NCBI GenBank assembly: GCA_016882485.1
Contig: VGPT01000011.1
Location: 1-38,222 of the forward strand
Reading direction: 5' to 3'
DNA from: Cyanobacteria bacterium M_surface_10_m1_298
GTDB lineage: Bacteria > Cyanobacteriota > Cyanobacteriia > PCC-6307 > Cyanobiaceae
Length of the DNA stretch: 38,222 bases
The translations under genes were made by a program, and so were the position numbers. The notes beneath the pieces were generated by a model, which did not search any database, had not been told where the DNA came from, and saw only the letters and a program-made list of their open reading frames with translations. Below are positions 131 through 3,489 of the stretch, piece by piece. Numbering within the stretch: the stretch's first letter is position 1; the number at the start of each line of letters is the position of its first letter.

Positions 131-1210
131 ATGATTCCCACCTCCGATCTCCATGTGGTGGAAACCCGGCCGCTCGTGGCGCCCACCCTCCTGCATCGAG
201 AGCTGCCCCTCTCTGAGGTGGCCGGAGCCACCGTGCGGGAATCCCGCGAACGCGTCAAAGCGATTCTTCGGGGCGACGATTCGCGCCTGCTGGTGATCGT
301 GGGCCCCTGTTCGGTGCATGACGTGGAGGCCGCCAAGGAATACGCCGCGGCGATTGCAGAGGAGCACCGGCGCTACAGGGATCAGTTGGAAGTCGTGATG
401 CGGGTGTATTTCGAGAAGCCCCGCACCACCGTGGGCTGGAAGGGCCTGATCAATGACCCCCACCTTGACGGCAGCTACGACATCAACACCGGTCTGAAGG
501 TGGCCCGCGGTCTGCTGCTGCACCTGGCGGAGATGGGCCTGCCGGCCGCGACCGAGCTGTTGGATCCGGTGGTGCCGCAATACATCGCGGATCTGATCAC
601 CTGGACCGCCATCGGAGCCCGCACCACCGAAAGCCAGACCCACCGCGAGATGGCTTCTGGCCTCTCGATGCCGATCGGCTTCAAGAACGGCACCGATGGC
701 AGTGCGATCACGGCCATCAACGCGATGGAAGCCGCGGCTCGCCCCCACCATTTCCTCGGCATCAACCAAGACGGCCAGGCCGCCATCGTGACCACCACGG
801 GTAACCCCGATGGACACCTGGTGTTGCGAGGCGGTAAGCAGGGCACCAACTTCCACGCCGAAGCAATCGAGGCGGCGGCGGCGGCCCTGGAGAAAGACGG
901 CCTGCCGGCGCGGGTGATGGTGGATTGCAGCCATGGCAACTCCAACAAGGACTACCGCCGTCAGGGCGAGGTGGCGGCCGCGGTGGCGGATCAGCTGCGC
1001 TCGGGTTCACGCCATGTGATGGGCGTGATGATCGAAAGCCATCTGGTGGCTGGCAACCAAAAGATCAGCGCGGATCGCGCTCAGCTCACCTACGGACAGA
1101 GCGTGACGGATGCCTGCATTGATCTGGCCACCACACGAGAGGTGCTGGCCCAGTTGGCCGATGCGGTGTCAGCCGCGCAGGCCAAGATCCCTGCGCCGGT
1201 GGCGGTTTAA
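131..1210 (+). CDS. aroG: 3-deoxy-7-phosphoheptulonate synthase (class I DAHP synthase)
   Basis: Condenses phosphoenolpyruvate with erythrose 4-phosphate in the first step of the shikimate pathway in the cytoplasm. The 359-aa length fits the AroF/G/H type I family. Visible family signatures are the VGPCSVHD segment near residue 57, the MRVYFEKPRTTVGWKGL block around residues 94-110 that contacts phosphoenolpyruvate, the IGARTTESQ segment in the middle, the GFKNGTDG loop, and the DCSHGNSNKD motif near the C-terminus. The ATG at 131 gives the expected N-terminus. The gene stands alone on the plus strand and is followed by a CIRCE element. Which feedback class (Phe, Tyr or Trp) it belongs to cannot be told from the sequence by eye. 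Confidence 0.95.
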   Translation: MIPTSDLHVVETRPLVAPTLLHRELPLSEVAGATVRESRERVKAILRGDDSRLLVIVGPCSVHDVEAAKEYAAAIAEEHRRYRDQLEVVMRVYFEKPRTTVGWKGLINDPHLDGSYDINTGLKVARGLLLHLAEMGLPAATELLDPVVPQYIADLITWTAIGARTTESQTHREMASGLSMPIGFKNGTDGSAITAINAMEAAARPHHFLGINQDGQAAIVTTTGNPDGHLVLRGGKQGTNFHAEAIEAAAAALEKDGLPARVMVDCSHGNSNKDYRRQGEVAAAVADQLRSGSRHVMGVMIESHLVAGNQKISADRAQLTYGQSVTDACIDLATTREVLAQLADAVSAAQAKIPAPVAV

Positions 1211-1227
1211 GAGGTTGATCGCATGAA

Positions 1228-1254
1228 TTAGCACTCGAAGATCAAGAGTGCTAA
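1228..1254. promoter_or_regulatory. CIRCE element (HrcA operator)
   Basis: A perfect match to the CIRCE consensus TTAGCACTC-N9-GAGTGCTAA. The symmetry extends outward to 16-bp arms at 1221-1236 and 1246-1261 around a 9-nt centre. CIRCE is the operator of the heat-shock repressor HrcA, normally found in front of groESL or groEL2 in cyanobacteria. Here it lies 18 nt after the DAHP synthase stop and about 90 nt before a small unknown gene on the same strand. No clear sigma-70 promoter could be picked out between it and that gene. Confidence 0.93.
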
Positions 1255-1344
1255 TTCATGCCTCCATTGCAAATTGTTTGCCCTGAGCAGACCTGCGCGA
1301 GGCTCTGAATAGGTTGTCTCTAGAGCTTGCAAGGAGGTCGATTA

Positions 1345-2368: not shown

Positions 2369-3409
2369 TCAGGCGGCCTGCTGGTAGTTGGTCATCAGGC
2401 GCAGCTTGAGGATCGCTTTGGACTCCAGTTGCCGCACCCGCTCGCGCGACACATTGATCTGACGGCCGATTTCAGCCAGGGTCAGCGGCTCCTGGCCGGC
2501 CAGGCCGAAGCGCAGCTCAATGATCTTGCGCTCCCTCTCATTCAGCTGAGAGAGCCAGGTGCCGAGATGTTCTTTCTGCAGGTTGCGGTCCATGGAATCC
2601 ATGGACTCATTGCTGTTCGGGTCGGCAATCAGTTCACCCAGGGTGCTCCTGTCGTCGTCGCCACGGGCGTGGGCATCGAGGGAAGCGCAGGGTGCACTTT
2701 GAGAGATCAGCTCCTCCAACTCATCCGGGGTCATGCCGAGGGCGTGAGCTAACTCCAGGCGGTTTGGTTGACGACCGAAGCGATGGGAAAGCTCGCGGGT
2801 GACGCGCCGCATCTTCGAGAGCTTTTCACTCACATGAATGGGCAGGCGAATGGTGCGTGCGCTGTTGTCGATGGCCCGGGTCATGCCCTGGCGAATCCAC
2901 CAGTAGGCATAGGTGGAGAACTTGTAACCCATGGCGGGGTCAAATTTATCGACGGCGCGCTCGAGGCCGATCGCCCCTTCCTGAACGAGGTCGAGAAGCT
3001 CGAGGCCCTGGTTCTGATACTTCTTCGCCACGCTGACCACGAGACGAAGGTTGGCGGCCATCATGCGGTCGCGGGCCCGAGTGCCCATGCGGATCTGATG
3101 CTTCTGGCGTGCGGTCAGATCTGCAGCAGGCAGTTCCTGCAGGCGCTTCATCGCCTGCACATGGTGGGCCAGTTCAATCTCCTCAGCGGGTGTGAGTAGA
3201 GGTACGCGGCCGATATTGCTCAGGTACCAGCCGATCGAATCAGCACTGAGGCGACCTCCCTGACGGGACGCCGAGGTTCGGGTCGACGATCTGTTGCTTG
3301 AAGGCCCGGAAGCAGCGGAGTTGGTTGCAGGCATGGCACCGTTTGCGAGGGCTTCGGTGGTTGCTTTACGGTGTGACTTGCCTCTGGGTGATTGCAGAGG
3401 AGAACTCAT
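2369..3409 (-). CDS. Group 2 RNA polymerase sigma factor (sigma-70 family)
   Basis: 346 aa. After a basic, Ser/Thr-rich N-terminal tail of about 55 residues come region 1.2 (DSIGWYLSNIGRVPLLT), region 2 with the core-binding and -10 recognition segment (NLRLVVSVAKKY through KFSTYAYWWIRQ), region 3 (RLPIHVSEKLSK) and region 4 with the helix-turn-helix (LTLAEIGRQINVSRERVRQLE). It lacks the long region 1.1 and acidic domain of the primary sigma, which makes it a group 2, non-essential sigma of the SigB/C/D/E type. I cannot place it in a subclass by eye. A perfect GTA-N8-TAC box 110 nt upstream suggests NtcA control. Phytol kinase follows in the same transcription unit. Confidence 0.95.
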   Translation of the reverse strand: MSSPLQSPRGKSHRKATTEALANGAMPATNSAASGPSSNRSSTRTSASRQGGRLSADSIGWYLSNIGRVPLLTPAEEIELAHHVQAMKRLQELPAADLTARQKHQIRMGTRARDRMMAANLRLVVSVAKKYQNQGLELLDLVQEGAIGLERAVDKFDPAMGYKFSTYAYWWIRQGMTRAIDNSARTIRLPIHVSEKLSKMRRVTRELSHRFGRQPNRLELAHALGMTPDELEELISQSAPCASLDAHARGDDDRSTLGELIADPNSNESMDSMDRNLQKEHLGTWLSQLNERERKIIELRFGLAGQEPLTLAEIGRQINVSRERVRQLESKAILKLRLMTNYQQAA

Positions 3410-3489
3410 GAACCGGAAAGCAGCTTGAGTTGGCCGGAATTTAGCACTTATGGGCGGTCGAGATTGCAGCGAATTGGAAGACTTGCTGC

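Follow-up and report, generated by a model that had tools for sequence, protein, structure and literature searches.

The window, a stretch of 38,222 nucleotides analysed at its full length, carries near its start a DAHP synthase gene of the aroF/aroG type (131-1210, plus strand; Pfam PF00793, E 4e-91). This gene is followed on the same strand by an open reading frame for a protein of 111 amino acids (1345-1680), which begins 6 nt past the Shine-Dalgarno sequence AAGGAGGT (1331-1338, plus strand). The DAHP synthase gene is the same-strand neighbor of the small gene in most Cyanobiaceae loci and is not found beside it in some. A membrane protein, a sigma factor, and a polyphosphate kinase are encoded downstream of the small gene, as assigned from the list of open reading frames, two Pfam hits, and the translations. 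The list of open reading frames, Pfam, and a reading of the translations agree in placing no chaperonin gene near the 111-aa gene.

The leader between aroF and the small gene contains a palindrome. A consensus scan of the window identifies it as a CIRCE element, TTAGCACTC-GAAGATCAA-GAGTGCTAA, at 1228-1254 with 0 mismatches. No other site in the window matches with 3 mismatches or fewer, and none turned up in 100 dinucleotide-shuffled versions (0 expected); the palindrome is a real CIRCE and a putative HrcA site. Its symmetry extends to 16-bp arms, GCATGAATTAGCACTC (1221-1236) and GAGTGCTAATTCATGC (1246-1261), around the 9-nt spacer, giving an extended palindrome at 1221-1261 whose outer 7 bp are unconserved beyond close relatives; only the 9-bp core of each arm is widely conserved. 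The preliminary description had claimed a mismatch-free CIRCE upstream of a small gene, symmetry running on to 16-bp arms, a perfect Shine-Dalgarno sequence, and the absence of a nearby chaperonin gene, and each of these was confirmed. A CIRCE-like half site, TTTAGCACTTA, also occurs at 3439-3449, upstream of the minus-strand sigma factor gene (2369-3409). It has no second arm and is probably a chance occurrence.

The source assembly (1.99 Mb in 145 contigs) encodes a single HrcA, on contig C29 (PF01628, E 6e-29). Two other CIRCE-like sites occur in the whole assembly at up to 3 mismatches, one on contig C103 and one on C104, both before groES-groEL. Together, groESL and the 111-aa gene make up the whole CIRCE regulon that can be detected in this lineage. 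In cyanobacteria CIRCE is known upstream of groESL and groEL2; this holds here for groESL and fails for groEL2, whose locus on contig C9 is without a CIRCE (best match 5 mismatches). The atpD-groESL stretches on contigs C103 and C104 of this genome (G000; loci L003 and L002) differ from each other, and both have a CIRCE; the duplication probably comes from contamination of the metagenome bin or from another strain in it, and not from the presence of two operons.

The pairing of CIRCE with the small gene is stable within the genus and family. The gene is present in 19 of 25 same-genus genomes, and wherever a same-genus locus extends far enough upstream, a CIRCE is present at no more than 2 mismatches to TTRGCACTC-N9-GAGTGCYAA. 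Four same-genus genomes that lack the gene (G018, G020, G022, and G024; 89-99% complete) have one strong CIRCE each, at groESL, and G024 has one further match with 2 mismatches. A profile search recovers the gene in 134 of 400 Cyanobiaceae genomes, distributed over 16 of 59 genera. CIRCE accompanies it in most of the gene-carrying genera sampled, including marine ones in which the protein is only 36-45% identical, and 51 of 56 Cyanobiaceae loci have the element at 0-2 mismatches. Exactly two CIRCEs are found, at the stringency used, in most high-quality genomes that carry the gene. The gene never occurs without hrcA among 80 genomes (37 with both, 15 with neither; Fisher p 2e-5), although genome reduction and the incompleteness of assemblies confound this association.

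The surroundings of the gene vary within the family. In most loci of the marine group g5, aroF was not found within the fetched stretch and CIRCE is kept, which assigns the operator to the small gene. Action of CIRCE on aroF is unlikely, given that aroF ends upstream of it and that some sampled loci keep the element with no aroF detected next to the gene. In genera g24 and g32 the gene follows 57-98 bp behind aroF and CIRCE is absent there; hrcA and one CIRCE are present elsewhere in the genome. In one lake metagenome genome (L007, near position 2890), the CIRCE before the gene has lost its right arm and kept its left.

The association reaches well beyond Cyanobiaceae. Of 386 cyanobacterial genomes searched with a widened profile, 103 contain a member of the family; the "unusual target" of the preliminary description is thus no oddity of one lineage and belongs to a phylum-wide family. 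In 19 of 40 loci fetched from other families, a CIRCE lies no more than 400 bp upstream of the gene, and neither groEL nor groES is encoded near these distant homologs. When the same 400-bp search is applied to all 96 loci (56 Cyanobiaceae and 40 from other families), the best CIRCE match is bimodally distributed: 70 loci have 0-2 mismatches, none has 3, and 26 have 4-8. Mapped onto the protein tree, the CIRCE label needs 7 changes against 22.9 after shuffling, in a tree with many unresolved branches and near-copies that inflate clustering; the clustering supports an association of CIRCE with the gene and gives no count of events. The absence of CIRCE from g24, g32, and about half of the distant loci indicates that HrcA control is not indispensable. 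Three distant loci (L139, L136, and L172) have two or three CIRCEs in a row before the gene, and in L139 one site is present in three copies at 57-bp intervals.

The conservation profile of the palindrome is informative about its function. An alignment of 45 non-redundant Cyanobiaceae loci gives 0.9-2.0 bits at the 18 positions of the arms, compared with 0.2-0.6 in the spacer and 0-0.6 in the flanks, and the core GCACTC/GAGTGC is nearly fixed at 1.5-2.0 bits per column. Conserved arms around an unconserved spacer, between unconserved flanks, are the pattern of a protein operator. Such constraint over many genera makes it exceedingly improbable that the site is a relic, whether a trace of some earlier groE locus or an inherited remnant with no effect on regulation. 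Only the lack of a chaperonin gene nearby favors a relic, and CIRCE is also retained in different gene neighborhoods throughout the phylum. A lost groE locus had been named beforehand as the finding that would speak against a regulon member; it is rejected, as groESL has a site of its own at another place in the genome and some marine relatives keep the small-gene CIRCE where no adjacent aroF was found.

A second alternative holds that the palindrome works mainly as an RNA hairpin, either terminating aroF transcription or structuring the leader of the small gene. The palindrome does lie close behind the aroF stop codon, a transcript across it would fold strongly (-54.9 kcal/mol, z -4.9), and some marine loci flank it with A-rich and T-rich stretches. 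However, a terminator scan of the plus strand does not call the palindrome, which is followed here by CTCCATTGC and no T-tract. The near fixation of GCACTC/GAGTGC is likewise at odds with RNA pairing, which allows compensatory changes, and loci with no aroF found upstream of the gene have the palindrome all the same. As its letters also match the HrcA consensus exactly, a primarily RNA-level function is very unlikely, and the hairpin may have a minor RNA effect beside its probable role as an HrcA operator.

Conservation of CIRCE with the gene in relatives, the check by which the proposal was to be judged, was found in the genus, in most gene-carrying genera of the family, and in many distant cyanobacteria, and hrcA is present. 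The 111-aa gene is very probably an undescribed member of the HrcA regulon, as first suggested, and not a groE relic.

The layout downstream of CIRCE suggests how the gene might be transcribed. A second conserved dyad of the TGTTC-N5-GAACA type, here in the degenerate form TGTTTGCCCTGAGCA (1275-1289), would be an activator site near -40. It precedes a putative -10 hexamer, TAGGTT (1310-1315, plus strand), which would place the transcription start near 1322, about 23 nt ahead of the ATG; the assignment draws on the conservation of the TAN3T columns and the fixed 21-nt spacing. The combination GTTC-N5-GAAC-N21-TAN3T occurs downstream of CIRCE in 44 of 54 loci, and the dyad has a mean best score of 11.4 of 14, compared with 7.7 +/- 0.12 in shuffled leaders. 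A class II activator layout, with a dyad near -40 and about 20-24 nt between it and TAN3T, is established for CRP/NtcA-type promoters, and the second dyad shares this layout. Its consensus, GTTC-N5-GAAC (TGT-N9-ACA), departs from GTA-N8-TAC, the canonical half sites of NtcA, and does not establish NtcA as the regulator. Two same-genus genomes have the GTTC-N5-GAAC dyad in two further settings (loci L183, L189, L182, and L190): ahead of an amt-like ammonium transporter gene, and in a divergent region of genes without known function.

Relative to the predicted start, the center of CIRCE in Cyanobiaceae falls only at -80 to -83, -92 to -94, or -102 to -105. These three positions are about one helical turn apart, in loci that are related and among which independent shifts are few. 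The Cyanobiaceae CIRCE would accordingly lie upstream of the promoter, unlike the groESL CIRCE, which is placed at the start site; all starts compared in these genomes are predicted ones. The groESL leaders of this genus have a -35/-10 pair (TTG..., CATA..) that abuts CIRCE, an arrangement that agrees with the mapped groES start of Synechocystis within the CIRCE loop (PMC2662882). Nostocaceae-type loci of the small gene have a -10-like TAATAAT about 24 nt upstream of CIRCE, which suggests the classical layout with CIRCE just downstream of the -10 element.

Each of these three parallels, the abutting groESL pair, the Synechocystis start, and the Nostocaceae-type TAATAAT, can be read in favor of ordinary CIRCE control in Cyanobiaceae as well, from a promoter upstream of CIRCE in the usual geometry and with GTTC-N5-GAAC/TAN3T as a separate second promoter. 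The Cyanobiaceae leaders nevertheless show no conserved -10 or -35 element upstream of the small-gene CIRCE (0-0.4 bit per column), yet a conserved promoter downstream. Ordinary control is possible and deserves weight, and it is the less likely arrangement; an operator upstream of the dyad promoter is preferred.

The protein itself offers few clues. The 111-aa sequence has nothing in Pfam at E<=1 and no match of its own in NCBIfam, in keeping with its initial description as a member of no recognized family, and searches of the wider family against Pfam, NCBIfam, PHROGs, and PDB sequences gave nothing significant. A lone Pfam match (E 2.5e-4) in 1 of 57 family members was taken as chance, the others being without it. 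Similarity to Cpn10 or Cpn60 is absent, there being no Pfam match of any kind, and the sequence contains no recognizable chaperone motif. Several tryptophans are invariant in the family. The only cysteines of the 111-aa protein are Cys 8, 90, and 105, and a CxxC pair is absent. Searches of plasmids and phages found no copies of the gene.

Structure prediction is of limited help. Two AlphaFold models are poor (mean pLDDT 66 and 61) and suggest, with low confidence, a mixed fold of strands and helices. Foldseek searches with the predicted models returned nothing below E 3. The best rows of the aligner, a likeness to chorismate mutase and isochorismate-pyruvate lyase (Z 3.5), lie within the noise for helical pairs, so no link to the neighboring DAHP synthase was drawn from them. 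In a complete same-genus genome (G017, locus L026), an in-frame deletion of about 27 codons removes much of the long central helix, and CIRCE is intact.

The proposed control follows the established HrcA mechanism, in which HrcA is active with the help of GroEL and is released when stress titrates GroEL (summarized in PMC7760821). In unstressed cells, HrcA kept active with the help of GroEL would occupy CIRCE and repress the 111-aa gene. Proteotoxic stress, such as heat or strong light, would titrate GroEL, HrcA would leave the operator, and the gene would be expressed with groESL. In Cyanobiaceae, HrcA would control the promoter with the activator-like dyad from sites on one face of the helix, at roughly -81, -93, or -104, and would then presumably work otherwise than by occupying the start; repression from -81 might proceed by anti-activation at the dyad, by looping, or through a missed upstream promoter. 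That the palindrome is a functional HrcA operator with the 111-aa ORF as its regulated gene, taken with the whole explanation by stress derepression, is given a probability of roughly 70%.

Shared control suggests that the 111-aa protein is made with the GroESL folding machine in stress, and the best guess from the genomic evidence is a stress-derepressed proteostasis protein co-expressed with GroESL. By analogy, it most likely serves proteostasis beside GroES and GroEL, a role proposed from the two-unit regulon with groESL and from the precedent of Ruc in Mycobacterium tuberculosis. HrcA might instead bind the operator of a protein unrelated to folding, for example one related to nitrogen or light, with CIRCE giving only stress induction. 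The resemblance of the second dyad to a class II activator site, its recurrence before the amt-like gene, and the missing chaperone motif are consistent with such a role, but groESL is the only other CIRCE-controlled unit found in these genomes. A non-folding function is thus a plausible minority view, and proteostasis is the favored one. A bolder proposal combines two parts: that the phylum-wide family of about 110 aa, under joint control with groESL, is an undescribed partner or modulator of the chaperonin (or of HrcA), and that the Cyanobiaceae operator has shifted to class-I-activator-like positions next to an activator site, from which HrcA acts through anti-activation, looping, or activation instead of occluding the start. 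As a whole this combination is speculative and rather doubtful.

HrcA regulons usually consist of the chaperonins themselves, and a conserved extra member points to an unknown component of the cyanobacterial protein-folding stress response. An operator whose position steps by helical turns from relative to relative further offers a chance to test HrcA action other than start-site blocking. CIRCE and HrcA are known, and the 111-aa gene is filed as an apparently new regulon member with respect to the searchable literature; the full-text literature on HrcA, CIRCE, and cyanobacteria, a scope outside which most subscription papers fall, names only groESL and groEL2 as targets. The position of the operator in Cyanobiaceae is a possible new variation.

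Among known systems, the closest is the control of groESL and groEL2 by HrcA and CIRCE in Synechocystis and Nostoc (reviewed in PMC7760821). The operator, TTAGCACTC-N9-GAGTGCTAA, is the same, and the genome encodes a repressor of the same family. The target differs, being an unnamed small protein and not a chaperonin; moreover, the Cyanobiaceae operator appears to lie upstream of the predicted promoter, and groEL2 in this genome is without a CIRCE. Cyanobacterial groESL is also described as controlled by a K-box together with CIRCE, as cited in PMC5381637 and PMC8400943. To the extent of those citations, the small gene likewise combines CIRCE with a second conserved cis element, which here is the GTTC-N5-GAAC dyad at a fixed spacing from TAN3T.

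A more distant system bears on function. Ruc (Rv0991c) of M. tuberculosis is an HrcA-controlled, small, redox-regulated chaperone that was formerly of unknown function (PMC7448276). Its gene is the only HrcA target of that species besides Hsp60/Hsp10 and is under a second, positive control by SigH (PMC7448276). Ruc and the 111-aa protein are both small and linked to HrcA, here through CIRCE, and the SigH control of ruc would have a counterpart in the putative activator site of the 111-aa gene. Ruc has an N-terminal four-cysteine zinc ribbon with two CxxC pairs (PMC7448276); the 111-aa protein has no such pairs and is therefore not a Ruc homolog. Because the odd HrcA target of M. tuberculosis proved to be a new chaperone (PMC7448276), the 111-aa gene is a testable candidate for another.
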